A stretch of 64,000 bases of DNA from Chitinophagaceae bacterium (GTDB lineage Bacteria > Bacteroidota > Bacteroidia > Chitinophagales > Chitinophagaceae). A program made the translations under genes and the position numbers. The stretch is taken from contig JAHBTL010000011.1 in NCBI GenBank assembly GCA_019638615.1, positions 62,001-126,000 on the forward strand, written 5' to 3'. The notes beneath the pieces were generated by a model. The model worked only from the letters and a program-made list of their open reading frames with translations. It was not told where the DNA came from and searched no databases. How positions within the stretch are numbered: position 1 is the stretch's first letter; every line of letters starts with the position of its first letter. Of the stretch, positions 5,295 to 38,073 are shown in pieces.

Positions 5295-5304
5295 AGTGTG
5301 GGTA

Positions 5305-6990: not shown

Positions 6991-7015
6991 TTTTAAAAGT
7001 TTATTCTGTGCGCGA

Positions 7016-10000: not shown

Positions 10001-10171
10001 TAATTGTCTTGCAACTACTGTAGCCCTATATAAAGGATGATTATCTTCGTCTTTTACCTGGCCTTTTACAACAGGAGATTGCTGAGCATAGAGCCTGAGT
10101 GCTATTCCTGATAAGATCAGGCACATAGCAAGCCTTGAAAAAGCAGTTAGTATACGCAATTTGCGTTTCAT
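7016..10171 (-). CDS. SusC/RagA-family TonB-dependent outer membrane transporter, no STN domain
   Basis: The protein has 1051 residues from the ATG at 10171, chosen because it opens a signal peptide ending RLYAQQ. The order is a carboxypeptidase-regulatory-like beta sandwich (about 33-112), a TonB-box region with EVVVGYG, the plug domain with LIVIDGYPVESGN and the family's ASATAIYGSRGANGVVLITTKRG, then a long 22-strand barrel ending in an aromatic-rich strand (SVGLTAGF). It imports glycans or other large ligands with the SusD partner 25 bp downstream. There is no N-terminal STN signalling domain, although an ECF sigma/FecR pair lies immediately upstream. The 136-bp gap to fecR holds a possible operator (GGTAACGTTGATA near 10266). 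Confidence 0.95.
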   Translation of the reverse strand: MKRKLRILTAFSRLAMCLILSGIALRLYAQQSPVVKGQVKDEDNHPLYRATVVARQLNSSDSVTVQTDRIGVFTFNSLKQGVPYSFTVTYIGYDPQTLSGYTFKPGDDVSLLVKLTKISSILDEVVVGYGKLRKRDLTGSVATLKLKEVNQLPITSVEQMVQGRVSGVQVTQNTGAPGGGISFLIRGANSLLGTNGPLIVIDGYPVESGNSTPSIGFSDTFSDAPGGNALSNINPSDIESIEILKDASATAIYGSRGANGVVLITTKRGVSGKEQLEYSFRFDRSAATKQIEMLEARDYMNYINEGSANAGLSPVYTNEDIEKFSTVNYNWQNLVYRTAATQNHQLNISGGTEKLRYAISGNYLNQEGIIKGAAFDRGTIRANLDRQFNDRLKFGLNFSASRSTLHAVPQSSSNGNISGSVVLGAQLSRPIDQPYTEEESPDLAMIGNPATLIDLQKDVTREQNVLTNIFGEYTLLPGLRFRINAGVNDRRNTRQTYAPRGTFQGNGAGGQAYQGETSLFNYLAEYTLNYDKTIAEKHRINAVGGYTWQSWNATGMGVTVRSFPNDQLSYYSLQNGNAAQKPSSSTQNWALASWLARVNYSFDSRYLVTFTGRTDGSTRLAEGKKWKFFPSVAVGWNIKNEKFLSGSNVLSELKLRASYGLSGNQSIAVGSTRARLATISAVVGQSIVTGFTQSSMANDALTWDITSQFDMGADIAFLANKFFLSVDYYRKVTADLLLNIQIPPSTGFSSYATNIGKVENKGFEIEIGARPSVGKLRWEISGNLSVNKNKVLSLGALSRTLGPTFFASGLNQPLHVALPGSQIGAFYGYRIVGIYQNTDEIAAGPSDPARPTPGDFKYADISGPQGKPDGIITPDDRTIIGNPFPDFIFGLSNNFSWKGLTLSVLFQGAIGQDMINLNRLATDALNTSSPSNVRKEAFANRWTGEGTSDTYPKATKTGLLFQGRFSDFIVEDGSFARLKNVVIGYAIPLAGSRFLHTLKIFAAGTNLITLSGYKGYDPEINSKGTNALTPNVDYGSIPQMRTYSVGLTAGF

Positions 10172-10307
10172 ATAACAAGTGTTATGAAGTAAAAAAATAG
10201 ATACGTTAGCAAACAATACGTTTCAAATTTGCTACTCCCCTAAAAGAATGTTAAAAATATTTTTATGGTAACGTTGATAGCCGCAGGAGGAAGAGAAAGG
10301 AGGTACT

Positions 10308-11357
10308 TTATTTGTAGATACGAAATACACCGTTAGACTGTTTGCTCAGTTGCAGTTTATTTAGCAAAGCAATAGATTTCAGGACATCTTCCAGGGCATC
10401 CGTCTTATCTATCTTACCAATAAAACTAAGGTTCTGTATATCAGCTTTGTCATAAATGATCTTTTGATCATAGATCTTTTGTAGCTGATCTAATACATCA
10501 GAAAGGGATTGATTGCTAAACATAAAAGTACCAGATGCTACATTTCCTTTACCTGTGGTTATCGTTTCCTGTGGCTCAGCAGGCAGGTAATCGGGGGCGG
10601 AAATAATGGAAGAAACCTCAGCCTTTCCTGTACTTTTATTATAGACCAGCAACCTGCCTGAAGTAAGGTAAATATCCTTAAATTCTGTCATTTCCTTTAC
10701 CGAACTGCGCACAACCACCTTGCCTTCATACAAGGCAACAAACAGATCGGCTTTATCATCAAAAGCCGTAACCTTAAAACGGGTGCCTAAAACTGTTGTC
10801 GCCAATGCATCGCTGAACACTGTGAATGGCATATTTATATTTGGGGTTATGCTGAAATAGGCTTCTCCCCGAAGGTTTACTTCGCGTTTTGCTCCTGTAA
10901 ATGCATCCGGATAGCTTAACGTGCTATTAGGCATCAGCTCTACAAATGAGCTATCAGGCAGGTAAAAAGTTTTCGCCATGTTGCTATTATTGCTAATGCT
11001 CCTGGTGAGAGCATCCGCTACCCGGATATCGTTACCTGGTTTAGCGCCGGTTTGTTGTTTTTGAAGAAAATAAAACAAAGTACCTACAGCCAGGATCAGG
11101 GTGGCTGCTACGATCCATTTGCGGGCATATAAAGGGATGATATGTGCCTTCTGCCTTTTTTCCAGGATACTTTTCCATAAAGCCTGTGCATCCGGGGCAG
11201 CAGCAGCGCTATCACCAGGGAAGGACTGCCATTCCGTTTCGTTCATATACTCAAATAATGCTTCCGGATGCTTTTCAAAATATTGCAGCACTTCCTGGTG
11301 CTCTTCGTGTGAGCATTTCCTCAGAAAAAAACGTTCTATGGTGGCATGGTCTATCAA
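10308..11357 (-). CDS. FecR-family anti-sigma factor
   Basis: The protein has 349 residues. The N-terminal cytoplasmic part (1-78) should bind the sigma factor. One transmembrane helix (residues 81-98) follows, then a periplasmic FecR domain (about 120-230, with TVFSDALATTVLGTRFKVTAF) and a C-terminal secretin/TonB-like domain of the DUF4974 type (about 275-349, with SLSDVLDQLQKIYDQKIIYD). Such proteins hold the ECF sigma factor inactive until signalled from an outer membrane transporter. It starts 9 bp after the sigma gene stop. It is longer at the cytoplasmic side than minimal anti-sigmas but normal for Bacteroidota. Confidence 0.93.
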   Translation of the reverse strand: MIDHATIERFFLRKCSHEEHQEVLQYFEKHPEALFEYMNETEWQSFPGDSAAAAPDAQALWKSILEKRQKAHIIPLYARKWIVAATLILAVGTLFYFLQKQQTGAKPGNDIRVADALTRSISNNSNMAKTFYLPDSSFVELMPNSTLSYPDAFTGAKREVNLRGEAYFSITPNINMPFTVFSDALATTVLGTRFKVTAFDDKADLFVALYEGKVVVRSSVKEMTEFKDIYLTSGRLLVYNKSTGKAEVSSIISAPDYLPAEPQETITTGKGNVASGTFMFSNQSLSDVLDQLQKIYDQKIIYDKADIQNLSFIGKIDKTDALEDVLKSIALLNKLQLSKQSNGVFRIYK

Positions 11358-11366
11358 CTCAAAAAC

Positions 11367-11987
11367 TTAACAATTATACAATATAAAGAATACGTTTCGA
11401 AACATATCCTGCCCTAAAACCGTAAAAATATTTTCATAACATAGTACAAAGGCTCCTCCCCAAAAAAGCAGCGGCAACATCATCCTTTTCAGATGCTTTA
11501 TGGCTAGCACCATATGGTTTTCTACTGTTTTTGGTGAAATAGATAATTGTTTTGCAATTTGCTTGTAGGATAATCCTTCAAAGCGGCTGAGCTCAAACAC
11601 TTTTCGCCGGGCCGGAGGCATAGATTCCAGTGCGTAAAAAAGCTTTTTACTGACATCGGCTGCGTCAAGATGATGATATACATGGTTATTATGCTCCTGC
11701 TCACCAGAAATATTATGCATTACCTGTTGCAGATTATGTTGTTTGCGTAGCAGATCAATAAGCGTGGTGCTGGCTATGCGAAATAATTGTGTAGAAATGC
11801 TATGTTCCAGGCTTAGCTTATCGCGGTAATCCCAAAGCTTGATAAAAGTAAGCTGAACAGTTTCCTCCGACAGCCAGGCCGACCGGGTTTTGGAAAAGAT
11901 ATAAAAATACAACTTACGGTAATACTCATCAAATACCGCTTTATATGCTGCATCGTTGCCTGCTCGTATCGCTTTAACAATATCCAA
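11367..11987 (-). CDS. ECF RNA polymerase sigma factor (Bacteroidota sigma-70 family)
   Basis: The protein has 206 residues, apparently from a TTG codon at 11987; no in-frame ATG lies between it and an upstream stop. Region 2 (about 8-85) includes FDEYYRKLYFYI and EETVQLTFIKLW. Region 4 (about 125-175) carries the helix-turn-helix LSYKQIAKQLSISPKTVENHM. After region 4 there is an unusual hydrophobic tail (MMLPLLFWGGAFVLCYENIF), common in this subfamily. It should direct transcription of the downstream susC operon when released by the FecR protein encoded 9 bp downstream. Confidence 0.93.
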   Translation of the reverse strand: MDIVKAIRAGNDAAYKAVFDEYYRKLYFYIFSKTRSAWLSEETVQLTFIKLWDYRDKLSLEHSISTQLFRIASTTLIDLLRKQHNLQQVMHNISGEQEHNNHVYHHLDAADVSKKLFYALESMPPARRKVFELSRFEGLSYKQIAKQLSISPKTVENHMVLAIKHLKRMMLPLLFWGGAFVLCYENIFTVLGQDMFRNVFFILYNC

Positions 11988-12189
11988 TGTTACTAAACTA
12001 CTAACTAATTATAAAACACGTGAAAGTCCTAATGTTGATGTCTTGCAAAGAAAACCATTTTGTCGAAAAGAAATGCCGCAAAGACAGGGTTAAGATGTTT
12101 AAAAAAGCGGACTTCTGCTTTAATGCAATCTTCTAGCTGAGCTGCTTCAGATCGCTGATAAAAGCATCGTTTTTGAAACTATACATATT

Positions 12190-13218
12190 TTATCTCTGAT
12201 AGATGTTTAGTACCTCCTTCATTTTTACCGGTACACCACCACGTTGTTTGCTTATATCTGCCGCCTGCATGAAGGCATATATTTCAAGTGTTTCTTTTGG
12301 GGGTACGGGAGGAATGCCGGTGTTGAAAAACTCAATAATTTTTTCAAGCAATCCTTCATATCCCTGGAAAGTACCGACTGGTGCGATGCCTTTTTCGCCA
12401 AACGCGGTTCCGCCATAGTCGTCGGCGCCTGTTCGTATACCCCTGAAACTTCCTATACGCCCATCTGCCCATATGCCTGTAACCAGGTCAGTGCCTGCGG
12501 TATAGGTTCTTGTAACTGTTGTGCATCCTGTGCCCAGCAGCGTATATAATGGCTCAACGCCGTGAATGCCGTACCAGCATAAGTCAACATGTTTGTCTTG
12601 CAGGGGAGCGGGACTATAGGTATCGGCACCGGTGATCCTGCCTATTTTTTCCCCTGATGCAAGCTGCGCTATCTGCTTTGTATACCTCAGTGTTGAAGAT
12701 GAAAAAAGCGGTACCTTATATTTTTCTGCTGCTTTATAAATGGCAACTACGTCTTTAAAATTGGCAGCAATGGGTTTGTCTATGAACATGGTTTTGCCGG
12801 CTTTGATCACCTGCATCGCCTGCTCTACTCTCGGTTTCCCATCATTGGTTTCTAATAAGATGAAATCTGTTTTTTGCAAAAGCGCGTCAATCGAGTCAAC
12901 GATCTCCACATTGTGTTTTTTTGCTTCTTCAATATAAGAGGGAATTCGCTCATAGCTCGATTGTATATCCCTGCTGCCATAAGGATATGCCGCCGCAATC
13001 GTATACCCGTTTGCCGCTGCAAATGGATGGGCGCCGTTTAGTTGTTGCATAATATTAGTGCTGTGCGAAGTATCTAAACCAATGATGCCAATGCGTTTAT
13101 TGTTTTGCCTGAATGGCATTGACTGTGCTGATAAAACAGAGGGGAAAGTTATGCTTACACCCAACCCTGCAAGCGAAGCTTTCTTTATAAAGTTTCTCCG
13201 GGAGTCATTATTTTTCAT
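12190..13218 (-). CDS. Gfo/Idh/MocA-family oxidoreductase with Tat signal
   Basis: The protein has 342 residues. The start gives a near-ideal twin-arginine signal (SRRNFIKK at residues 6-13 before GLGVSITFPSVLSAQ), so export by the Tat system with a pre-bound cofactor is likely. The Rossmann fold begins IGIIGLDTSHSTN, a variant of the usual GxGxxG nucleotide loop, and the family's catalytic lysine lies in FIDKPIAANF. These enzymes oxidise or reduce sugars and cyclitols with NAD(P), and some work by a cofactor-recycling glycoside cleavage mechanism. It is divergent from the beta-helix protein gene; the shared 199-bp promoter region contains a perfect palindrome. Confidence 0.9.
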   Translation of the reverse strand: MKNNDSRRNFIKKASLAGLGVSITFPSVLSAQSMPFRQNNKRIGIIGLDTSHSTNIMQQLNGAHPFAAANGYTIAAAYPYGSRDIQSSYERIPSYIEEAKKHNVEIVDSIDALLQKTDFILLETNDGKPRVEQAMQVIKAGKTMFIDKPIAANFKDVVAIYKAAEKYKVPLFSSSTLRYTKQIAQLASGEKIGRITGADTYSPAPLQDKHVDLCWYGIHGVEPLYTLLGTGCTTVTRTYTAGTDLVTGIWADGRIGSFRGIRTGADDYGGTAFGEKGIAPVGTFQGYEGLLEKIIEFFNTGIPPVPPKETLEIYAFMQAADISKQRGGVPVKMKEVLNIYQR

Positions 13219-23764: not shown

Positions 23765-26700
23765 TTAATCTCCACCTGTAGCTTCTTTCTTCAGCTTTAA
23801 AGCATTTTTAAATTCATCGGTCGATACTTCCCGTGTATTGTATTGCTGCATGTATGCTTTGTGCTTTTCGAAGGGGTAAGAGACATTGCCTTTATAAGGA
23901 TAGGAAGGCATGCTGTGAAAAGGCAATGGTTCTACGGTTTGCCCATGCGCTGTATTCAAATCACCGTCTTTTACCCATCCTTCGCTGTAAATCAAAAAAT
24001 CCCGCTTCCATCCTTTGGGTAATACAGGCAGATTGCCTGCATCGAACTCAATGCTGACCTCATCTCCCGAATTGCAGATGATGTATTCATCATCTCCCTC
24101 CAGCAATAAGGGCAATACATCTCCATAGCGGGTATAGTATCCCGTAAGGTCCCGCCATTTTTGACCGGCGCCTGTTTGATAATAATCAAACCAGTGAGGA
24201 CCAAAAGGCCCGCCCTTTCGATAGGATGCGGAATATCCCCTGAAGGACAGCGCTGCTTTTACCATTGCCAGGTCATGCATTTGTACCGGGGCTTTCGACA
24301 ATCCATTTGAATAAAATATCTCATCCCAGTATAGCTGCATATTGGTTCGTATCCTTATTTTCCTGTTATCAGGCGTAAGGAATTTACCCGAAAGATCAAC
24401 GATCACCATTTTGTCTTTTCCCATAGGAAAGCCTATGTTGGGTATTACGGTTTGCCATTCTCCTTTTTTATTGATTACCTGCAGCGCGGGCGGAGTCACT
24501 TTATATTGTGCTGATTGGGTAAGCGAAGCATTGATGCTGGCATCTGTAGGAAAGATCCATCCCCTTAGAAACAGGAAAAGCGCATCGCTGGTCGCCCTGT
24601 CGCCCAGATCCAGTATTAAATCATGATCTTCGGTCAATCCCTGGTATTTACCCAACTCAAAATTAGCTATATACTGAAAGTCGTAAGCCGTAATTTTAGA
24701 GAGCAGATCATTGCCGTTGTGATCAGTAGCGGAAAGCGGATAGTGTTTAGCAGCTACACTGTACACCTGTTTTCCGGGGAAGGGTGGAGCAACGAAACGT
24801 TCATCGGCAAACACATCCACGGAATCAGGATGATCTACCGCGACGAGCCCTGCCTTATCAAAGTAAACCGCTTCCCAGAGCTCCTCTGTTATTTTAATGG
24901 AATAGTGATTGTCTTTTGGTTGCAGCTTTTCTCCCGGTATAAGCAGGTATTCTTTAGAAGGATCGGAGAAGGCATAGGTGGTATCTCTGCCATTTACAGT
25001 AAGCGGCATGCCCAGAGCGCTGCGCCACATCATGTCTTTCAGGAACTCATATTCTTTACCATTCCACACAAATAAAAACGGGCAGGAGCCTTTCAACATC
25101 TGCTCTTCTATTATCCGTTCTTTTGCTGAAGGATCTTTGATCACCTGGGGAGTACCGTTGGGCCAAATAATCCGGACAGCATCAACAGCATTGCGTGCAC
25201 CCAGTCCGAAATTTGTAATCCCTCTTTTAATTGTTCTGAGTTGATACAAATCTCCGGCTTTGAGCTCCACCTGCGCTCCGATCCCCAACCGGTTGTTTTT
25301 ATTGTTACCGTAAGAAAGCCCGGTTAGCTGCACCTGCATATAATGATTTAAATTACCGCCGTCATTTCTTAGCAGCTTTACACCACCGGGCGTAGCTAAA
25401 AAAACATCGTCATCGCCGTCAAGATTAAAATCGGCGATGGAAATGCGGGTAGCCTGCAGGGGCGTTGCTGGCAATAGATGAGACACATTGCTGAAACCCT
25501 TTGTACTGTCGTTGTGAAATAATTGTATGCCGCGGGATGAAGCGTTGTTTGCAATACCGGTTACTATTAAATCCAGGTGTCCGTCGTTGTCAAAGTCTGT
25601 AAAGGCGGCATCCATTATTTTGGTATTCCGCACGGTTTCATTCAATATTTTACTGGCAGGATCAGCGACAAACCTGGCTCCATCCACGTTTTTGAGCAAC
25701 AGGCTTTGCGATGCTCCTGCGATAAACAGGTCAGGCATGCCGTCATTATTGTAATCTGCCGAAACAACAACGCTTCCTTTCAGCTTTTCATTTTTAAGTC
25801 CGGCCAGACCAGTAACATCCTTAAAAGCAGCATGCCGGTTATTATTTAACAGGCGCGTGCCGGCGGCATCGCTGATGGTGATTATATCCAGGTCGCCATC
25901 CACATCATAATCAGCAAAATCCATAGCATTGGTGCCGCCGGGTATGGCAAGCCCCATTGCATTCGCCTGTTCTGTAAAACTGCCGTTGCCATTGTTGCGA
26001 AAAAACCTGTTTACTCCTTTCGTTGCCGTATACAGATCAATGTCGCCGTCCTGGTCGAAATCGGCAAACAACATTCTCTCTGTATGAGCTGTATTATTCA
26101 GACCAATATTTTGCCTTACAGGAATGAATGCTCCTCCCGCACGGTTTTTAAACAGTAAGATACCCTGTGTGGTAGCGATGAAAAGATCGGGGTATCCATC
26201 ATTGTCGTAGTCAATAAAAGCGGCGTCCAGGTCGCGGTAAGCATGGTCAATGGTGCCGCCTTCTGTTCTTGCCTCCTGGAAATTGCCGATACTGCTTACC
26301 AGCAGGTAACATTTTTGCTTCCCTGCTATGATGCTGCTGCTGTACAAATACATTTCCCCGGACTCTGAATAGTCGGTTACCGCTACAACGGCGTTGCCCG
26401 ATGTATTTTGATTTTTGTTGTCCAGCCCGATCGCGTCTGTAGCATCTGTGAACCGGGTATTGCTGACGGTAGCCCGCCGCGCATTTGCTTTCTTATTCTG
26501 AACCTGGCCCGATGCAAAATCAGCATACCCGGAAGATAATTTAGGGCCTTCCAAAACCGACAGGGCTTCAATATAGGCGCCCGTTACCCGCAATAGATCG
26601 TGAAACCTGTTTATATGCACAAGCGCCCGGGAGAACTGATTGCTACGAAGTGCCTGTATAGCCTGGTTATAAAAGCTGTTGATCGCCGGTGAAAAATCGG

Positions 26701-27334
26701 TGGCGATTTTTTTTATTTCCTGCAGGTAATAAATGGCGGAATCTGCCTTATTGTTCCGGGTAAGTATTGCTGCCAGGTCTGCGCGTATTACCACGTTGGC
26801 GGGAGCAAGGGAAAGGGCTTTCAGCAAATAATTTTTTTGCCCCGGTGCATATAGATTGGCCAAAGCATAGCAGGCAAAAATGTTTTTTCTATTGTTTTGG
26901 ATGATCGTATTCAGCTCGTTGACCGCATTCTGCTTTTCTCCTTTCCCGGCATATATTTTAGCCAGCACCGCTCGCATCTCATCGTTGCCTGGCTTCAGCT
27001 TTACTCCTGCCCGGGCAATGTTTTCCGCCTTGCCGTAGTTCTTTTCCGTTAAATACAATATGGCCAGGTCCCTGTAATTTAAAATTTCATCCGGCGATAT
27101 TTTAATCGCTTTTACAAACGCGGCTTCCGCTTCGTTGACCTGGTTCTTTTGCAAATACTGGTAGGCAAGTACCCTGAGAGATACCCGGTTGTCCTGCGAC
27201 ATCATGATATAGGGTACCAGAACAAGCATGGCAATACCCATCAGCTTTTGTCTCCGCAAATCGTATAGCGTTACACGGAGCACTAAAAAAATCAACCTGA
27301 CTGTTTTATCCATCAGCAGCTTCAGTTTTAGCAT
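23765..27334 (-). CDS. Giant TPR/FG-GAP/ASPIC-UnbV protein, paralogue 1
   Basis: The protein has 1189 residues. The first 46 residues contain a basic stretch and a hydrophobic segment (MGIAMLVLVPYIMMSQ); translation may really begin at a later Met (residue 8 or 32), giving a normal signal. TPR helices (about 50-220) are followed by an FG-GAP propeller (about 290-680) with six calcium-type loops such as DYDNDGYPD, DFDQDGDID and DFNLDGDDD. The ASPIC/UnbV segment is at about 665-740 (NNRLGIGAQVEL, AVRIIWPNG). The last 444 residues are a separate module starting GSCPFLFVWNGKEYEF and nearly identical to that of the neighbour gene 61 bp upstream. Surface or periplasmic location is inferred; the function is unknown. 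Confidence 0.85.
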   Translation of the reverse strand: MLKLKLLMDKTVRLIFLVLRVTLYDLRRQKLMGIAMLVLVPYIMMSQDNRVSLRVLAYQYLQKNQVNEAEAAFVKAIKISPDEILNYRDLAILYLTEKNYGKAENIARAGVKLKPGNDEMRAVLAKIYAGKGEKQNAVNELNTIIQNNRKNIFACYALANLYAPGQKNYLLKALSLAPANVVIRADLAAILTRNNKADSAIYYLQEIKKIATDFSPAINSFYNQAIQALRSNQFSRALVHINRFHDLLRVTGAYIEALSVLEGPKLSSGYADFASGQVQNKKANARRATVSNTRFTDATDAIGLDNKNQNTSGNAVVAVTDYSESGEMYLYSSSIIAGKQKCYLLVSSIGNFQEARTEGGTIDHAYRDLDAAFIDYDNDGYPDLFIATTQGILLFKNRAGGAFIPVRQNIGLNNTAHTERMLFADFDQDGDIDLYTATKGVNRFFRNNGNGSFTEQANAMGLAIPGGTNAMDFADYDVDGDLDIITISDAAGTRLLNNNRHAAFKDVTGLAGLKNEKLKGSVVVSADYNNDGMPDLFIAGASQSLLLKNVDGARFVADPASKILNETVRNTKIMDAAFTDFDNDGHLDLIVTGIANNASSRGIQLFHNDSTKGFSNVSHLLPATPLQATRISIADFNLDGDDDVFLATPGGVKLLRNDGGNLNHYMQVQLTGLSYGNNKNNRLGIGAQVELKAGDLYQLRTIKRGITNFGLGARNAVDAVRIIWPNGTPQVIKDPSAKERIIEEQMLKGSCPFLFVWNGKEYEFLKDMMWRSALGMPLTVNGRDTTYAFSDPSKEYLLIPGEKLQPKDNHYSIKITEELWEAVYFDKAGLVAVDHPDSVDVFADERFVAPPFPGKQVYSVAAKHYPLSATDHNGNDLLSKITAYDFQYIANFELGKYQGLTEDHDLILDLGDRATSDALFLFLRGWIFPTDASINASLTQSAQYKVTPPALQVINKKGEWQTVIPNIGFPMGKDKMVIVDLSGKFLTPDNRKIRIRTNMQLYWDEIFYSNGLSKAPVQMHDLAMVKAALSFRGYSASYRKGGPFGPHWFDYYQTGAGQKWRDLTGYYTRYGDVLPLLLEGDDEYIICNSGDEVSIEFDAGNLPVLPKGWKRDFLIYSEGWVKDGDLNTAHGQTVEPLPFHSMPSYPYKGNVSYPFEKHKAYMQQYNTREVSTDEFKNALKLKKEATGGD

Positions 27335-27395
27335 ACCCTGCAGGCAAAAATAAAACCATTTGAAAGGAGGTCAGCCGGATCGCCACGAAAACATT

Positions 27396-30300
27396 TTAAT
27401 CTCCACCTGTAGCTTCTTTCTTCAGCTTTAAAGCATTTTTAAATTCATCGGTCGATACTTCCCTGGTATTGTATTGCTGCATGTATGTTTTGTGCTTTTC
27501 GAAGGGATAAGATACATTGCCTTTGTAGGGATAGGAAGGCATGCTGTGGAATGGGAGAGGTCCCACTGTTTGTCCATGCGCCGTATTCAAATCTCCATCC
27601 TTTACCCATCCTTCGCTGTAAATTAAAAAATCCCGCTTCCATCCTTTGGGTAGCACAGGCAGGCTGCCTGCATCGAACTCAATGCTGACCTCATCTCCCG
27701 AATTGCAGATGATGTATTCATCATCTCCTTCCAGTAATAAAGGCAATACATCTCCATAGCGGGTATAGTATCCCGTAAGATCCCTCCATTTTTGCCCGCC
27801 GGCTGTTTGATAATAATCAAACCAGTGAGGACCAAAAGGCCCGCCCTTTCGATAGGATGCGGAATATCCCCTGAACGACAGCGCTGCTTTTACCATTGGC
27901 AGGTCCTGCATTTGTACAGGGGCTTTCGATAACCTGTTTGAATAGAATATCTCGTCCCAGTATAGCTGCATATTGGTTCGTATCCTTATTTTCCTGTTAT
28001 CAGGCGTAAGGAATTTACCCGAAAGATCAACGATCACCATTTTGTCTTTTCCCATCGGGAAGCCGATATTGGGTATTACGGTTTGCCATTCTCCTTTTTT
28101 ATTGATCACCTGCAGGCTGGGTGGAGCCACTTTATATTCTGGTGATTGAGTAAGAGAAGCATTGATGCTGGCATCTGTAGGAAAGATCCATCCCCGCAGG
28201 AACAGGAAAAGCGCATCATGGTTTGCTTTGTCACCTAAATCCAGTACCAGGTCATGCGCTTCGGTCAGTCCCTGGAATTTGCCTAATTCAAAATTAGAGA
28301 TATACTGAAAGTCGTAAGCGGTGATTTTTGAAAGCACATCATTGCCGTTGTGATCAGTAGCGGAAAGCGGATAGTGTTTAGCAGCTACACTGTACACCTG
28401 TTTTCCGGGGAAGGGCGGAGCAACGAAACGCTCATCTGCAAACACATCCACGGAATCAGGATGATCTACCGCCACAAGCCCTGCCTTATCAAAGTAAACC
28501 GCTTCCCAGAGCTCCTCTGTTATTTTAATGGAATAGTGATTGTCTTTTGGTTGCAGCTTTTCTCCCGGTATAAGCAGGTATTCTTTAGAGGGATCGGAGA
28601 AGGCATAGGTGGTATCCTTACCGTTTACGGCAAGCGGCATGCCCAGAGCGCTGCGCCACATCATGTCTTTCAGGAACTCATATTCTTTACCATTCCACAC
28701 AAATAAAAACGGGCAGGAGCCTTTTAGCTTTTCTTCTTCGATTAATTTTTGTTTGCGTGAAGGATCGCTGATGAACTGGGGCGCCCCGTTCGGCCAAATG
28801 ATGCGTACGGCTTCCAGCGAATCGCGGCCTCCAACGCCAAAATTGGTCAACGCTCTTTTAATGGTTTTCAATTGATAGAGTTCTCCTGTTTTCAGCTCTA
28901 CCTGGGCTCCAATGCCCAGCCGGTTGTTTTTATTATTGCCGTAAGAAAGCCCGGTTAACTGTACCTGCAGGTAATGGTTTAAATTACCGCCGTCATTTCT
29001 TACCAGTTTTATACCGTCAGGTGCTGTTAAAAAAACATCGTCATCGCCGTCAAGGTTAAAGTCGGCTATGGCTATCTGCAGGCCCTGTGCGGGAGCTTCC
29101 GGCAATAAATGCGACACATTGCTGAAACCTTTTGTACTGTCGTTGTGAAATAATTGTATACCACGAGAAGTCCCGTCAGCGCTCACTCCCGATACCAGGA
29201 TGTCTTCACGACCGTCGTTATCAAAATCAATGAATGCTGTTTTGGATACGGTTACATTTTTAAGAGCGTCTGAAAACACTTCAGAAGCCGGATCGGCAAT
29301 ATATCCATTGTTGCCGGTATTCTTAAGCAGGAAGGAGGGACCGTTTTTTGTTCCTGCAATAAACAGGTCGGGCATGCCGTCATTATTGTAATCGCCAAAA
29401 CTGACAGCGCTTCCTTTGAATAAAGGATTTTTAAGGTGCAGTGAATCTGTAAAGTCAGAAAATTTTGAATACCTGTCATTGTTAAATAATTGAATAGCGC
29501 CATTCGATAATACGACCGCGATATCCAGGTCGCCATCCGAATCCCAATCTCCAAAATCCATGTCTTTTATTCCCGAAGCGGCTGAAAGATTCATTGCTTT
29601 GGCCTGCTCCGTAAAGGTACCATCGCCGTTGTTCCTGAAAAATTTGTTTACACCTGTACAACCGATGTATATATCAAGGTCGCCATCCTGGTCAAAATCG
29701 GCAATCAAAAGCTTATTGCCATCGGTAATATCATTCAGCCCGGTATTCTTTTTTATCCTGGTAAAGTTCCCGTCTCCTTTATTTTTATATATAACGATTC
29801 CTTTCGTGGTTGAAATGATAAGATCCTGGTATCCGTCGTTGTCATAATCGGCAAATACGGCATCTAATTCATCCGCGGTGTGATCCAACCCTGCAGCAGA
29901 CGAAACTTCATTGAATGTTCCGAAATCTCTTTTAAAAAGATAATGTATGGGGGATGATCCGTTTGCAGCAAAACCAGCGTATATATAAGTATTCCCTGTG
30001 CCATCATCATCGGCAAGCGCCAATACCGATTGGGTTGCATGAATGTTTAACGGTATTGTTAACCCCGTTTTTTCAGCAATCTCCGTGAATTGGATATCGT
30101 TCAAGGTAATCACCCGATCCCTGTTGTCTGTTTGTCCAAACCGGCTGTCGTTAAATTCTGATTTAACACCCGGGAATACGGGAGGTTCTATTTCCGCAAA
30201 ATCGTTGGCATACGGCCTGGTGGCTTCCATTAACTGATGGAAACGCCGGATAAAGTATAGCGCGCCCGACGGCTGGTTTTTTTGGAGCAAAGCCATTGCT

Positions 30301-30941
30301 TTCTGATAAACCGTATCTGCTACTAAAGAAAATGCAGGAGCTATTTTTTGTATGCTTTGCAGGTAAAAAAGAGAAGAGTCCGTTTTGTTTTCTGCTGCAT
30401 ACAGCGCTGCCAGGTGTAGCCGGACGGGAATATTGGCGGGACTGATATCTAAAATCTTCAACAAATTGCGACCTTGTCCATTTGCATCCCTGCCCGTTTT
30501 CATCATACTGGAAAGCATGTAAAGAGCAACCAGGTTTTTAGGATCGGCAGATAATACTTCGTTTAATTCCTTTTCAGCATTTTGGGTGTTGTTTTGCTGC
30601 ACATAGGCCTCCGCCAGGATCAGCTTAAGTTCAGTATTGCCCGGGTGTATCTTCAAGCCATCCTGCACCTGCTTTTCAACGGCATTGAAGTCATCTTTTG
30701 CCAGATAAAGAAGCGATAAGTCGATATAGTTTAAAAGATTGTCCTTATCCGTTTTAATCGCCTTTTTAAATGCCACTTCCGCTTCGTCAAATTTACCATC
30801 CCACAAATAAGAAAGTGCGGTCACTCTTGGCGAACTGTTTCCATCCTCCTTATCCGCTTTTGTTTTACAGGCCGTAAAAATCTGCAGTAACACTGCTAAG
30901 GCTATTATATAGTAATTAATACAGATATTTTTCCGGGACAT
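27396..30941 (-). CDS. Giant TPR/FG-GAP/ASPIC-UnbV lipoprotein, paralogue 2
   Basis: The protein has 1181 residues with a lipoprotein signal (LLQIFTAC, Cys25), unlike paralogue 1. The order is the same: TPR array (about 40-225), FG-GAP propeller (about 290-670) with six calcium loops (DYDNDGYQD, DFDQDGDLD, DWDSDGDLD, DYNNDGMPD, DFDNDGRED, DFNLDGDDD), ASPIC/UnbV segment, then the 444-residue C-terminal module. That module differs from paralogue 1 at only about 22 positions, while the TPR part is clearly diverged. The two genes are 61 bp apart and probably one transcript starting here. Homology continues a few bases into the 3' flank, so a tandem duplication is evident. Confidence 0.87.
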   Translation of the reverse strand: MSRKNICINYYIIALAVLLQIFTACKTKADKEDGNSSPRVTALSYLWDGKFDEAEVAFKKAIKTDKDNLLNYIDLSLLYLAKDDFNAVEKQVQDGLKIHPGNTELKLILAEAYVQQNNTQNAEKELNEVLSADPKNLVALYMLSSMMKTGRDANGQGRNLLKILDISPANIPVRLHLAALYAAENKTDSSLFYLQSIQKIAPAFSLVADTVYQKAMALLQKNQPSGALYFIRRFHQLMEATRPYANDFAEIEPPVFPGVKSEFNDSRFGQTDNRDRVITLNDIQFTEIAEKTGLTIPLNIHATQSVLALADDDGTGNTYIYAGFAANGSSPIHYLFKRDFGTFNEVSSAAGLDHTADELDAVFADYDNDGYQDLIISTTKGIVIYKNKGDGNFTRIKKNTGLNDITDGNKLLIADFDQDGDLDIYIGCTGVNKFFRNNGDGTFTEQAKAMNLSAASGIKDMDFGDWDSDGDLDIAVVLSNGAIQLFNNDRYSKFSDFTDSLHLKNPLFKGSAVSFGDYNNDGMPDLFIAGTKNGPSFLLKNTGNNGYIADPASEVFSDALKNVTVSKTAFIDFDNDGREDILVSGVSADGTSRGIQLFHNDSTKGFSNVSHLLPEAPAQGLQIAIADFNLDGDDDVFLTAPDGIKLVRNDGGNLNHYLQVQLTGLSYGNNKNNRLGIGAQVELKTGELYQLKTIKRALTNFGVGGRDSLEAVRIIWPNGAPQFISDPSRKQKLIEEEKLKGSCPFLFVWNGKEYEFLKDMMWRSALGMPLAVNGKDTTYAFSDPSKEYLLIPGEKLQPKDNHYSIKITEELWEAVYFDKAGLVAVDHPDSVDVFADERFVAPPFPGKQVYSVAAKHYPLSATDHNGNDVLSKITAYDFQYISNFELGKFQGLTEAHDLVLDLGDKANHDALFLFLRGWIFPTDASINASLTQSPEYKVAPPSLQVINKKGEWQTVIPNIGFPMGKDKMVIVDLSGKFLTPDNRKIRIRTNMQLYWDEIFYSNRLSKAPVQMQDLPMVKAALSFRGYSASYRKGGPFGPHWFDYYQTAGGQKWRDLTGYYTRYGDVLPLLLEGDDEYIICNSGDEVSIEFDAGSLPVLPKGWKRDFLIYSEGWVKDGDLNTAHGQTVGPLPFHSMPSYPYKGNVSYPFEKHKTYMQQYNTREVSTDEFKNALKLKKEATGGD

Positions 30942-31047
30942 AAGTAAAAAAATGAGTTACTGCTGTTGAAGATAATAATAATCGCTTTGATTATTAACAA
31001 GCGAGGTTTATTGTTTACTTTTATATATTTTACTGCCCTCATTTTTA

Positions 31048-31065
31048 AACTAAAAATTTTTAGTT
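31048..31065. promoter_or_regulatory. 18-bp palindrome abutting a start codon
   Basis: AACTAAAAATTTTTAGTT is a perfect dyad ending exactly one base before the ATG of the UnbV-like gene. It replaces any recognisable ribosome binding site. It could be a repressor site or a leader hairpin that occludes initiation. Confidence 0.4.
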
Positions 31066-32871
31066 ATGAAAATGTCCCAAAAAACTGCTTTAACCATAAC
31101 AGTCATTATTTTCATAGCATTGCTTGCTATTACATTTGTTGCATCACGCAAGAACCCGGGCGCGTTAAACAATGAAACATCCGATATAGCAAAAGAAACA
31201 GCATTACAGCAATACGGGTTTTACCTGCAGCCGGTGAATGAAGAAGCAGGCATAACATTCCGCCATATTTGCCCGGATGTTGATCCGAAAGTAAGTAACA
31301 TAAAAATGCAGATAGCTTCGGTGGGAGCATCCGCTTCGGTGTGCGATTTTGATAACGACGGCTGGAGTGATATATATTTTACCAATAGCGGCAATGGCAG
31401 CATGAACGCTTTGTATCGCAACCTGGGCAATGGAAAATTTGAAGATGTTGCCGCTGAAACAGGAGTGGCGAACGTGAACATCAAAGGAACCGGGGCATCG
31501 ATGGGTGCAGTGTGGGGCGATTACGATAATGACGGTTTTAAAGACCTGCTCTTATACAAATGGGGAAAAGCGGAACTGTTTAAAAACAACGGGGGAAAAC
31601 ATTTTGAACGGATTACAGAAGGGAGCGGGTTGCCTGACTGGGCCAATATTAATTCCGCCATTTGGTTTGATTTTAACAACGATGGATTGCTTGATATTTT
31701 TTTGGGCGGATATTTTAAAGAAATTTTTCACCTCGACAGTCTGAATACAACCAAAATAATGCCCGAAAGCTTTAAATATGCCAATAACGGCGGAAGGAAC
31801 TTTCTTTTGAAAAATATGGGCAACGGCAGGTTCGGGGATGTAACGAAACAATATGGACTTACCACTAACAAATGGACGCTTGCCGCCGCCGCGGCCGATT
31901 TTAACGGAGATAACTTTCCGGAATTATACGTAGCCAATGACTACAGTGTAGACGAATTTTATTTGAATAAAAATGGAGAAACGTTTGAAGAGATTGGCAC
32001 CGAAGCTGGTGTTGGGCACATTCCCAAGAGTGGAATGAACGCTACGTTCGGCGATATAAACAATGATGGGAATATGGGCGTATACACCACCAATATTACC
32101 GAAAAAGGCATCCTCATTCAGGGCAACAATTACTGGCAACCTAAAAACGGAGGCACACAAACTCCTTCATTCGTAAACCTTGCCCAGCTTTCCGGTATTG
32201 AAAATGCTGGCTGGAGCTACGGTGCGCAGTTTGGTGACCTGAACAACGACGGATTTATGGACCTGTATGTTGCGAATGGATTTATCTCCGCCAAAGAAAA
32301 TACTTCTTACTGGTACGATTATTCAAAAGTTACAGGTGGCAACAGCAATATCATAGGCGATGCAAAAAACTGGCCGGATATGGAAGGCAAAAGCCAGTCG
32401 GGCTACAAAGAAGACAAAATATGGTTGAACAACAGCGATGCCATGTTCGAAGATGTATCAGGCAAAGTTTGCCCACCGGTTACTTACGACGGACGTGCCG
32501 TTGCTATGGCAGATCTGTGGAACAGGGGAGTATTGGATATTATTGTAGCCAATCAAAATAATATTCCTACCATTTATAAAAACACTTTGGCAGGTAATCA
32601 CCACTGGGTAGCTTTTGACCTGCAGGGAACCGTATCCAACGCCGATGCGGTAGGCGCCAGGGTGCAGATAGAATGGGAAGGGAAAAAACAGGTGCAGGTT
32701 GTTACAGGCGGAATGGGATTTGCTTCCCAGAACCAGCACAGGTTACATTTTGGATTAGGGGCAGGTAATCAAATAGACCAGGTGACTATTTACTGGCCTT
32801 CCGGCCGTGTTGATAAAATACAAACCCCCACGATTGACAAACTGCACATTATAAAAGAAAGCCAACACTAA
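31066..32871 (+). CDS. CRTAC1-family protein with FG-GAP repeats and ASPIC/UnbV domain
   Basis: The protein has 601 residues. An N-terminal hydrophobic helix (about 7-26) acts as signal anchor. From residue 55 on it is a seven-bladed-type FG-GAP propeller with loops DFDNDGWSD, DYDNDGFKD, DFNNDGLLD, DINNDGNMG and DLNNDGFMD, one of them degenerate (DFNGDNFPE). The C-terminal ASPIC/UnbV segment (about 515-590) includes ADAVGARVQIEW, HRLHFGLGAGNQ and VTIYWPSGRVDKI. UnbV is a conserved companion of enediyne polyketide synthases, and its relatives are widespread in Bacteroidota with unknown function. The next gene starts 5 bp downstream and is UnbU-like, so the two form an operon. It is divergent from the two giant paralogues. 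Confidence 0.88.
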   Translation: MKMSQKTALTITVIIFIALLAITFVASRKNPGALNNETSDIAKETALQQYGFYLQPVNEEAGITFRHICPDVDPKVSNIKMQIASVGASASVCDFDNDGWSDIYFTNSGNGSMNALYRNLGNGKFEDVAAETGVANVNIKGTGASMGAVWGDYDNDGFKDLLLYKWGKAELFKNNGGKHFERITEGSGLPDWANINSAIWFDFNNDGLLDIFLGGYFKEIFHLDSLNTTKIMPESFKYANNGGRNFLLKNMGNGRFGDVTKQYGLTTNKWTLAAAAADFNGDNFPELYVANDYSVDEFYLNKNGETFEEIGTEAGVGHIPKSGMNATFGDINNDGNMGVYTTNITEKGILIQGNNYWQPKNGGTQTPSFVNLAQLSGIENAGWSYGAQFGDLNNDGFMDLYVANGFISAKENTSYWYDYSKVTGGNSNIIGDAKNWPDMEGKSQSGYKEDKIWLNNSDAMFEDVSGKVCPPVTYDGRAVAMADLWNRGVLDIIVANQNNIPTIYKNTLAGNHHWVAFDLQGTVSNADAVGARVQIEWEGKKQVQVVTGGMGFASQNQHRLHFGLGAGNQIDQVTIYWPSGRVDKIQTPTIDKLHIIKESQH

Positions 32872-32876
32872 TACCC

Positions 32877-33722
32877 ATGCAGCAACAGGAATACGGATCC
32901 CCGCGTAATTTTATTTCGGAATGGACCAGGAAAAATTTTCAATACATACCGCCTGCTTTTATCACATTGATATTGTTGACAGGGCAGGTTACGTTTGGTA
33001 TCCTGGATAGTTATGTTAACCTGATCGTTGCCATTGTAACCTCTGTTGTGGGGGAAGTAGTATTGGCGCGGCTGGTATTGGGCACACGTAAAAACCTTGC
33101 CAGCGCCTATATAACCGGCATAAGCGTTGGCATATTGATCCGCTCCAATGTAATATGGCCTTATTTCGTTACCGCATTGCTTTCCATTATGTCTAAATAT
33201 GTACTCCGTTACAAAGGCAGGCATTTATGGAATCCTTCCAACTTTGGAGTGTCGTGGATGCTTGCGCTGAGTACCATGAATGTAGCAGGACTTAGTATGC
33301 AATGGGGGAGCAACCTGGCTGCTATGTCTGTAATATGGATTTTAGGATTGATCATTGTGAACAGGGCTAAACGGTTGCATGTAACGGTAACTTATGTAGC
33401 CAGCTTTGTTATCCTGGCTTATATACGATGCCTTATCACAGGCGATGCTTTTCTTGCAGAGTTATCTCCGTTGACGGGCCCCATGTATCAATTGTTCATC
33501 TTCTTTATGATTACCGACCCCCCGACATCTGTATCTACAAAAAAAGGAAGGATCATCGTGGTGATACTGGTAGCGGTTGTAGAGTTTGTTTTACGGCTTA
33601 ATCATTCCATATATGCGCCGTTTTATGCGCTCTGCATGGTAGGGCCGGTGGCTAAATTTATTGACCTGAAAATGAATTCTCCAAAAGAACAGCTCAAACC
33701 TGCAGGAGCTATGGGAAGTTAA
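32877..33722 (+). CDS. UnbU-like membrane protein related to RnfD/NqrB
   Basis: The protein has 281 residues with about eight or nine transmembrane helices. Two family blocks are visible: RHLWNPSNFGVSW (about 115-127), equivalent to the HxFNPA segment of RnfD/NqrB, and FFMITDPPTSVSTKKGR (209-225), equivalent to their MATDPxTSPT loop. The SGAT-type threonine that carries covalent FMN in NqrB and RnfD is not visible, so flavinylation is doubtful. No other Rnf or Nqr subunit is nearby. Coupling to the UnbV gene 5 bp upstream points to the UnbU group of enediyne-associated membrane proteins. A redox or transport role at the inner membrane is only inferred. Confidence 0.7.
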   Translation: MQQQEYGSPRNFISEWTRKNFQYIPPAFITLILLTGQVTFGILDSYVNLIVAIVTSVVGEVVLARLVLGTRKNLASAYITGISVGILIRSNVIWPYFVTALLSIMSKYVLRYKGRHLWNPSNFGVSWMLALSTMNVAGLSMQWGSNLAAMSVIWILGLIIVNRAKRLHVTVTYVASFVILAYIRCLITGDAFLAELSPLTGPMYQLFIFFMITDPPTSVSTKKGRIIVVILVAVVEFVLRLNHSIYAPFYALCMVGPVAKFIDLKMNSPKEQLKPAGAMGS

Positions 33723-36731: not shown

Positions 36732-36913
36732 TTTTCATGCAAAAGTGGGTTGTTGCTATGGCGCACAAAATATTGTATGAAGGAAATAAATCAATCTGTG
36801 TGTAGTAGCGCAATAAGTTTCGCAGGTTTTAAAATGTAGACCTGTCTGCTGAAGGTGGATGCGTTTGTCCCCATACCCCTATTTTTATTTAACGCCGGCT
36901 GCTATTAAAATTG

Positions 36914-36922
36914 TAACTTTTG
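36914..36922 (+). promoter_or_regulatory. Bacteroidota-type -7 box (TAACTTTTG)
   Basis: The sequence TAACTTTTGC resembles the Bacteroidota consensus TAnnTTTG with one extra base. It lies 15 bp before the TTG at 36937 and is the main reason for placing the thioredoxin-protein start there. No good TTTG -33 box was found. Confidence 0.4.
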
Positions 36923-36936
36923 CAAAATATTCAGTC

Positions 36937-38073
36937 TTGAAAAAGCCGGTTTTTCTTTTACATCTGGTGGTTTTTATCGCTGTTGCACTGAACTATTGTT
37001 TTGCAAATACGGGGAGAGAAGACCATCCCACACTGCCGATTGGCGCACAGGCTCCCGATTTCAGCCTGAAGGGAGTAGATGATAAAACCTATACCCTGGC
37101 TTCGTTCAGCGATAAAAAAATACTGGTTGTTGTATTTACCTGCAATCACTGCCCTACCGCGCAGGCGTATGAAGACCGGATCATTCAAATGACAAACGAT
37201 TATGCATCCAAAGGGGTGGGCGTGGTAGCTATATCGCCCAACGATCCCAATTCTATTACATTGAGCGAGCTGGATTATACAGATTTGAGCGATTCGTTTG
37301 AAGAAATGAAAATAAGGGCAAAAGAAAAGCGCTTCAATTTTCCTTATCTGTATGATGGCGACCACGAAGTAGCGGCAAGGGCTTACGGCCCTGTTGCCAC
37401 GCCCCATGTCTTTATATTCGATAACGAACGCAAGCTGCGCTACCAGGGACGTATAGACGATGTGGAAGATCCCACGAAAACACCCCGGAACTTCGATGCC
37501 CGCAATGCCATAGAGGCATTGTTGAATAATAAAATGGTAAGCCCGGAAACGACAAAAGTATTCGGCTGTTCTGTAAAATGGGTAGAAAAAAGCGAATGGA
37601 TTGTAAAAGCAAAAGAACAATGGGCAAAAGAGCCGGTTCAGTTGGAGCCGATTGACGAAAAAGGGGTGAGAGCGCTTTTGAAGAACGACTCAAAAAAATT
37701 ACGGCTGATCAATGTATGGGCTACCTGGTGTGGCCCCTGTGTAAGTGAGTTCCCCGATTTTATTACCATATACCGTATGTATCGCAAACGCGATTTTGAA
37801 TTCATTAGCATCAGCGCCGATTCGCCGGGTAAGAAAGAAAAAGCGCTGGAATTTTTAAAAGAGCAGCAAGCCTCTAATAAAAATTATATTTTCAGCGAGG
37901 ACGATAAATACAAGCTGATAGAAGCGGTGGATCCCGAATGGCGGGGTGCGTTACCCTACACCATACTGGTAGAGCCGGGTGGCAAAATTGTATATGCCAG
38001 GCAGGGAACCATTGACCCGCGCCTCATGAAAAAAACGATCGTGGAGAACAGGCTGCTGGGAAGGTATTATTAA
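36937..38073 (+). CDS. Exported double thioredoxin-fold protein (AhpC/TSA-like plus TlpA-like)
   Basis: The protein has 378 residues if it starts at the TTG at 36937, which gives a standard signal peptide (KKPVFLLHLVVFIAVALNYCFA). An ATG at 36859 in the same frame would add 26 residues and lie upstream of a promoter-like box. Domain 1 (about 35-190) is a peroxiredoxin/redoxin-like fold with FTCNHCPTAQAYEDR, holding one CxxC. Domain 2 (about 225-375) is TlpA-like with WATWCGPCVSEFPD. A cis-proline is visible in each (TPHVF, LPYTI). It probably reduces or isomerises thiols of exported proteins or mediates cytochrome maturation. It is alone on its strand, convergent with mutL. Confidence 0.85.
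   Translation: MKKPVFLLHLVVFIAVALNYCFANTGREDHPTLPIGAQAPDFSLKGVDDKTYTLASFSDKKILVVVFTCNHCPTAQAYEDRIIQMTNDYASKGVGVVAISPNDPNSITLSELDYTDLSDSFEEMKIRAKEKRFNFPYLYDGDHEVAARAYGPVATPHVFIFDNERKLRYQGRIDDVEDPTKTPRNFDARNAIEALLNNKMVSPETTKVFGCSVKWVEKSEWIVKAKEQWAKEPVQLEPIDEKGVRALLKNDSKKLRLINVWATWCGPCVSEFPDFITIYRMYRKRDFEFISISADSPGKKEKALEFLKEQQASNKNYIFSEDDKYKLIEAVDPEWRGALPYTILVEPGGKIVYARQGTIDPRLMKKTIVENRLLGRYY

Follow-up and report, generated by a model that had tools for sequence, protein, structure and literature searches.

The genome of a Chitinophagaceae bacterium (Bacteroidota; assembly GCA_019638615.1) carries, within the 64,000 nucleotides of contig JAHBTL010000011.1 that were analysed (positions 62,001 to 126,000, referred to here as the window), a gene pair at 31066..33722 encoding a CRTAC1-type propeller protein and a small membrane protein. 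On the evidence of its sequence the membrane protein is not an RnfD or NqrB but belongs on the side of UnbU, the membrane protein of enediyne cassettes; it is a relative of RnfD and NqrB that has no outer covalent-FMN linker and that, judged by alignment, has kept the counterparts of the cytoplasmic-side riboflavin/cation-site residues. The pair recurs in eight NCBI phyla, commonly in the company of a giant UnbV-domain protein termed F2. The function favoured here, tentatively and with less than even confidence, is that of a stripped-down riboflavin-type transmembrane conduit for electrons (or cations) lying under a periplasmic propeller.

Both genes lie on the + strand, 5 bp apart, and the open reading frames (ORFs) and Pfam scores bear out the original prediction, which had seen here a CRTAC1/UnbV protein followed by an RnfD/NqrB-like one. 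The first gene (31066..32871) encodes 601 amino acids (aa) with an N-terminal hydrophobic stretch, FG-GAP repeats (FG-GAP_3, 144.4 bits) and, at residues 528-592 (32647..32841, + strand), a UnbV_ASPIC domain (PF07593) whose 73.9 bits, against a cut-off of 23.4, place it in the family; cartilage acidic protein 1 (CRTAC1; 9etn, E 4.7e-13) was the single match at E<=0.01 in a search of the PDB. CRTAC1 is a secreted animal protein for which we know of no RnfD-type partner. The second gene (32877..33722) encodes a 281-aa RnfD/NqrB-related protein whose hydropathy and Lys/Arg distribution fit a predicted ten helices with both termini inside, two of the 11 local hydropathy maxima (206 and 213) having been counted as one helix. 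In a Pfam scan it matched PF03116 alone, with no C-terminal NAD-binding domain (PF00175), and it is the only PF03116 match in its genome, in which PF07593 matches at nine places.

The most conventional account of the membrane protein is that it serves an RNF or NQR complex as a normal RnfD/NqrB subunit. It passes the PF03116 gathering score (35.8 bits against 27.7, the best stretch being residues 147-251), it matches the curated RnfD subfamily TIGR01946 with an E value of 1.4e-9, and the window-type set of proteins matches a set of 14 RnfD/NqrB proteins in profile comparison (score 85, E 2.8e-11). However, the TIGR01946 score of 37.8 bits fails the cut-off of 207.05, neither PF02508 (RnfA/E, NqrD/E) nor FMN_bind (PF04205) has a match in the window's genome, while both match in 4 of 14 control genomes, the FMN linker is absent, and a branch with 100/100 support divides the UnbU-type proteins from RnfD and NqrB together. 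This account is regarded as extremely improbable.

The tree in question was built from 66 chosen rows and from columns in which 60% or more of the rows are filled, a rule that leaves out the FMN-linker columns. The rows comprise the window protein, 30 of 80 public loci and 7 of 19 other strong loci of the phylum (both described below), six proteins from Streptomyces, one from Serratia, one from the Bacteroidota locus L029, one from Metabacillus, three of a DUF2330 type, eight RnfD and eight NqrB; the last two groups were drawn from 30 loci, 11 of which had frames shortened by the start finder and three of which were full but left out, and were told apart by length. All 38 window-type rows fall in one clade (100/99), the tree label 'CRTAC1+giant' being carried by every one of them, including L139, which has no CRTAC1-type (CRT) neighbour, and rows without F2. 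The six Streptomyces enediyne-cassette proteins, the Serratia plasmid protein and L029 make up an enediyne-type clade (100/100), the DUF2330-type and redoxin-linked relatives fall outside both clades, and the two clades are sisters with weak support (86/71). Profile comparison gave a score of 193 between the window-type set and the eight-row enediyne-type set, as against the 85 with RnfD/NqrB, and of 63 between the enediyne-type set and RnfD/NqrB. The expectation that the membrane protein would lie nearer to UnbU than to RnfD/NqrB was thus upheld. The further suggestion, that the enediyne pair is one offshoot of a wider system, fits the tree, but sister clades so weakly joined do not show which of them gave rise to the other.

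The residues retained by the membrane protein are best described by reference to the RnfD of Clostridium tetanomorphum, numbered here on chain 7zc6_D. According to excerpts of the published account of that complex, from which it is cited throughout, the non-hydrophobic residues on either side of riboflavin are Asn124 and Asp248, Asp248 may mark a Na+ site, and FMN is carried on Thr153 within a linker of residues 140-190 (PMC9588780). Conservation in the new family was assessed in A2, an alignment of 66 close relatives that is separate from the 66 rows of the tree. N119, within the stretch H116-G124 (HLWNPSNFG, 33222..33248, + strand), aligns with Asn124, and both H116 and N119 occur in 66/66 rows of A2; D214, within T213-T217 (TDPPT, 33513..33527, + strand), aligns with Asp248 and occurs in 65/66 rows, the remaining one having E. 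K107 (codon 33195..33197, + strand) aligns with K112 of RnfD, a residue that the excerpts of the account do not mention (PMC9588780), and is again K in 66/66 rows of A2. K107, N119 and D214 are present in all 66 rows of the tree as well. R184 (codon 33426..33428, + strand), found in 66/66 rows of A2, serves as a marker of UnbU-type proteins, occurring in 50/50 of their tree rows and in 0/16 RnfD/NqrB rows.

At the position of the FMN-bearing linker of RnfD/NqrB, the window protein has a short loop on the outer side, joining predicted helices 5 and 6 (residues 134-147, 33276..33317, + strand). The spacing from the conserved Asn to the conserved Asp is 95 residues in the window protein, 93-101 in A2 and 95-104 in the other UnbU-type rows, compared to 130-160 in the 16 RnfD/NqrB rows, and alignment and spacing together establish that the covalent-FMN linker between the two five-helix halves is absent. 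A rough motif search for the FMN site found it in 9/16 RnfD/NqrB rows and 0/50 UnbU-type rows, and the call was therefore made from the alignment and the spacing. The enediyne-type membrane proteins also have no FMN linker, and K107, N119, R184 and D214 are present in 8/8 of their rows. Such conservation bears on the proposal that the membrane protein is a structural anchor or assembly factor that merely holds the propeller and F2, the RnfD site being a relic. A constant propeller neighbour amid highly variable accessory genes is what such a role would call for, but invariance of K107, H116, N119 and R184, and near invariance of D214, over eight NCBI phyla goes beyond the needs of an anchor, and the proposal is considered improbable.

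A scan of public genomes yielded at least 547 confirmed relatives, of which the best 80 were kept as loci, so that the figures on adjacency refer to near relatives; the CRT, F2 and UNBU profiles used were built here from loci of the phylum that include the pair itself. The 80 loci are distributed among Acidobacteriota (25), Balneolota (12), Planctomycetota (11), Bacteroidota (10), Gemmatimonadota (10), Armatimonadota (6), Pseudomonadota (2) and Latescibacterota (1), with three unplaced, and many of them are metagenome bins in which single phylum placements may be wrong. A six-frame profile scan found a CRTAC1-type gene directly upstream (<=400 nt) in 75 of the 80; among the five exceptions it lies about 1 kb upstream in L142 and L161, the locus edge cuts off L112 and L121, and L139 lacks the gene. 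In the 49 loci where both frames were found the commonest gap between the two genes was -4 nt (23/49) and 44/49 gaps were within 30 nt. The membrane protein has matches in 26 of 395 genomes of the phylum. Twenty, the window's own genome being one, are strong (E 3.1e-78 or better) and six are weak, these last being of other kinds where examined. Of the 19 strong loci besides the window 17 have the CRTAC1-type gene, L038 is cut by the contig end and L045 has none. It could be argued that two gene families have come together by chance in one genome, the more so as UnbV-domain genes are numerous here, with their nine PF07593 matches; adjacency in 75/80 loci from eight NCBI phyla refutes this, and the probability left to it is close to nil. 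The two outcomes named in the original prediction as telling against it were a grouping of the membrane protein with RnfD/NqrB and an adjacency confined to this genome; what was found is a grouping with UnbU and a pair that is widespread.

Two giant UnbV-domain proteins had also been reported to be encoded divergently from the pair, and these are present. The nearer copy of F2 (27396..30941, - strand, 1181 aa) has an N-terminus that appears lipobox-like by eye, tetratricopeptide repeats (TPR), FG-GAP repeats, a UnbV domain that is marginal (21.2 bits, under the cut-off of 23.4, and 24.2 bits in the genome search) and an unnamed C-terminal domain of about 450 aa (27399..28739, - strand), for which an alignment of 33 rows (A3) has 49 invariant positions and a Pfam search gave no match at E<=10. 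Matches of this domain in the PDB were judged to be due to chance, the best being to replication factor C over 74 positions (E 0.0042). The second copy (23765..27334, - strand, 1189 aa) likewise has TPR, FG-GAP and UnbV, and its C-terminal part, in which the domain occupies 23768..25111 (- strand), shares 95% identity with the corresponding part of the first. Among 48 F2 frames the N-terminus was lipobox-like in 17, hydrophobic without a lipobox in 19 and neither in 12, by a rule devised here.

The giants proved to be part of a recurring set. Sixty-four public loci offered 5.6 kb or more of room, and in 46 of these F2 was found upstream, on the same strand in 40 and divergently in six, and elsewhere in one; in the other 17 of the 64 it was below threshold or not found. 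The divergent form is shared by the window and, among its nearer relatives, by L088, L089 and L092, with two copies in the window as against one there. Of the 395 phylum genomes 41 gave a strong F2 match (E below 1e-100), and every one of the 20 that are strong for the membrane protein belongs to these 41, a co-occurrence with a hypergeometric probability of 1.2e-22 when the kinship of the genomes is ignored. Beyond F2 the neighbours vary by lineage with little repetition, and no third constant partner was found: in a Pfam scan covering 73 of 94 neighbouring proteins, the commonest among the 25 of 75 families listed was Alginate_exp, with three. A polyferredoxin-YtkA-'HEGP' group was rejected as a partner since the polyferredoxin and HEGP profiles match only 11/80 loci, with YtkA in 10 of these; the group lies upstream of F2 in nine of its 11 loci and elsewhere in L130 and L160. 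In L118 (39-2630) and similar loci it appears as a conserved YtkA/FixH-like lipoprotein, a membrane iron-sulphur protein and a 200-aa 'HEGPPFP' protein.

It is likely that the products of the pair form a physical complex, given the gene order, the overlapping frames and the parallel divergence of the two proteins (Spearman 0.81 over 70 loci, with 0/500 permutations as high), the last being expected of any co-inherited genes and no proof of contact. At the core the UnbU-type protein would be joined to the CRTAC1-type propeller at the inner membrane, and F2 would be the usual extracytoplasmic partner. The propeller, probably made by coupled translation and anchored outside (the N-terminus is a hydrophobic stretch without a lipobox in 55/59 propeller frames), would cover the exposed face of the membrane protein; electrons, possibly together with a cation, would cross the inner membrane by way of a non-covalently bound riboflavin, and the putative extracytoplasmic acceptor or ligand would be held by the propeller and F2. 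A conduit with a single cofactor, as has been proposed for the Nqr/Rnf-like systems (PMC11334425, PMC8238504), is suggested by the retention of the riboflavin/cation site without the outer FMN. The electron conduit draws further on the adjacency of the pair, the presence of F2 in all 20 strong genomes and the conservation of K107, N119 and D214. It is also favoured by a more distant relative on a Metabacillus plasmid (L053, 5315-6702), in which a redoxin gene overlaps the RnfD-like gene by 4 nt.

A number of observations weigh against this explanation. The propeller has no visible redox signature: no Cys is conserved above 95% in 70 rows, and the best-conserved positions are mainly Asp and Gly, as would be expected of calcium-binding FG-GAP blades. 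Apart from F2, the neighbours show no consistent redox character, and redox neighbours as a rule were rejected, since redoxin-like frames occur in 4/80 loci (phmmer, three queries). The counterparts of Asn124 and Asp248 may mark a cation site and not a flavin. CRTAC1-type genes exist without an RnfD-like neighbour, for example on a Granulicella plasmid (L170), so that the propeller family extends beyond the pair. F2 is strong in 21 of its 41 genomes without a strong membrane-protein match, for which reason it was rejected as an obligate part, and when 17 of those 21 regions and the second place in G030 were examined a CRT match lay beside F2 only in L201, which is cut at a contig end; in L185, another of these regions, no F2 was called by the gene finder used, which performs poorly in high-GC DNA. 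Finally, F2 does not adjoin the membrane-protein gene in G030 (about 1.1 Mb away), G171 (on another contig) and G368 (about 12 kb away).

The close and serious rival to electron transfer is a channel or exporter, in which the FMN-free inverted-repeat fold would allow passage of a small molecule or cation that is received or gated outside by the propeller and F2. RnfD is itself the Na+-translocating subunit and has a topology like that of urea and ammonium transporters, as far as excerpts of its account go (PMC9588780); the lack of a redox signature in the propeller and the SusC-type genes in 11/80 loci point in the same direction. Conversely, few positions are as well conserved as those flanking riboflavin in RnfD, and there is no consistent transporter neighbour among the loci. 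Taken by itself such passage is rather unlikely. The redox reading also has a broader form: a widespread envelope machine, so far undescribed, whose membrane part is an FMN-less riboflavin protein of RnfD descent that conveys electrons or ions across the inner membrane to a propeller complex, one branch of the machine being carried by enediyne producers. This form is put forward with more reserve than the conduit itself.

Two comparisons help to place the system. The window protein resembles RnfD/NqrB in its Pfam family, predicted helix count and riboflavin/cation-site residues, and differs in the absence of the covalent-FMN linker, in a genome without the partner subunit families and in having a branch of its own. 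The two-subunit Nqr/Rnf-like flavinylation systems likewise combine an RnfD-type membrane domain without a covalent-FMN site with an extracytoplasmic partner, according to excerpts (PMC8238504, PMC11334425), and one such RnfD-related system has been proposed as an outward electron carrier (PMC11334425); however, those systems include a cytosolic PF00175 domain for NAD binding and a partner resembling NqrC/RnfG, whereas the window protein has no PF00175 and its genome no PF04205. Beside RnfD/NqrB the pair would form a minimal branch free of FMN, and its conserved residues at the riboflavin site offer a direct test of function.

The UnbV and UnbU genes of the enediyne cassette, which we take to be its E5 and E4, have to our knowledge no clear role. 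Excerpts of one survey name the cassette E10/E/E5/E4/E3 and stress that enediyne clusters encode proteins of unknown function (PMC5181780). The pair of the Streptomyces globisporus C-1027 plasmid SGLP1 (L051) consists of the same two families in the same order, with 25% identity to the window in the propeller and 30% in the membrane protein. In this and four other enediyne cassettes (L055, L056, L167 and L168) DUF1702 genes precede the pair and a type I polyketide synthase (PKS) follows it, L169 differing in having no DUF1702 within the stretch seen, whereas the window has neither and has F2 instead; the membrane proteins of the two kinds fall in separate clades. None of the 28 window ORFs scanned is a DUF1702 or enediyne PKS, and the window's genome has no PF08012 (DUF1702) match, control genome G103 being positive, and no enediyne-type PKS, the seven matches to the C-1027 PKS being frames of 319-444 aa only. 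In keeping with the original prediction no enediyne cluster was found, here across the genome, so that the pair can be studied without the toxic product. Should the broader envelope-machine reading be true it would supply a function for the enediyne UnbV and UnbU genes, whose products would act in the same way on a polyketide-derived substrate.

That the pair belongs to an undescribed envelope system was predicted as well. Placement in the envelope is suggested by hydropathy and N-terminal signals. No description of this gene set was found in the open-licence literature, which is weak evidence of absence; what excerpts of four papers contain is a listing of a UnbV_ASPIC domain, of enediyne genes or of a CRTAC1 gene next to homologues of hydrazine synthase (PMC3174227, PMC12758564, PMC3909097, PMC7692728). 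The prediction is supported in part, the derivation of the enediyne pair as an offshoot being a possible reading. The gene set also draws attention to the F2 domain without a Pfam match.

Several relatives differ in their setting. Locus L029 of Bacteroidota (G103:C1:4000000-4019900, 3421-13204) has an enediyne-type cassette of DUF1702, CRTAC1-type, UnbU-type and 2010-aa PKS genes, the PKS being 33% identical to that of C-1027 over 1946 aligned positions and ending in a 4HBT_2 thioesterase-like domain. On the Serratia proteamaculans plasmid NZ_MT039191.1 (L052, 1-13729) DUF1702, VCBS/CRTAC1-type and RnfD-like genes occur together with genes for ketosynthase, acyl carrier protein (ACP) and aminotransferase; the annotation shows no type I PKS within this stretch. 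DUF2330 is fused to an RnfD-like domain in L027 and lies in the next gene in L050; judged by its length and its place in the clustering, the 792-aa protein of L028 is similar.

Some minor features of the window and its genome may be added. The divergent intergenic region between giants and pair (30942..31065) contains no match to TAnnTTTG, the promoter element of Bacteroidota, which across the window is rarer than in any of 100 shuffles. A two-domain redoxin/thioredoxin protein is encoded 3 kb downstream of the pair (36859-38073) and as a query matched 1/80 related loci. The genome has two ApbE flavin transferases (C6:137019 and C22:86667), yet no FMN_bind match. The two giants (23765-30941) are 29-54% identical over the first 600 aligned positions and 89-100% identical from about position 800, from where their DNA is also alike (0.86-1.0); gene conversion or partial duplication is a possible cause. 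Six more UnbV giants of another type (GIANT1) are encoded elsewhere in the genome (L171-L176) and, within neighbourhoods of 14-16 kb, SusC-type genes lie near four of the six and SusD-type genes near three of these.

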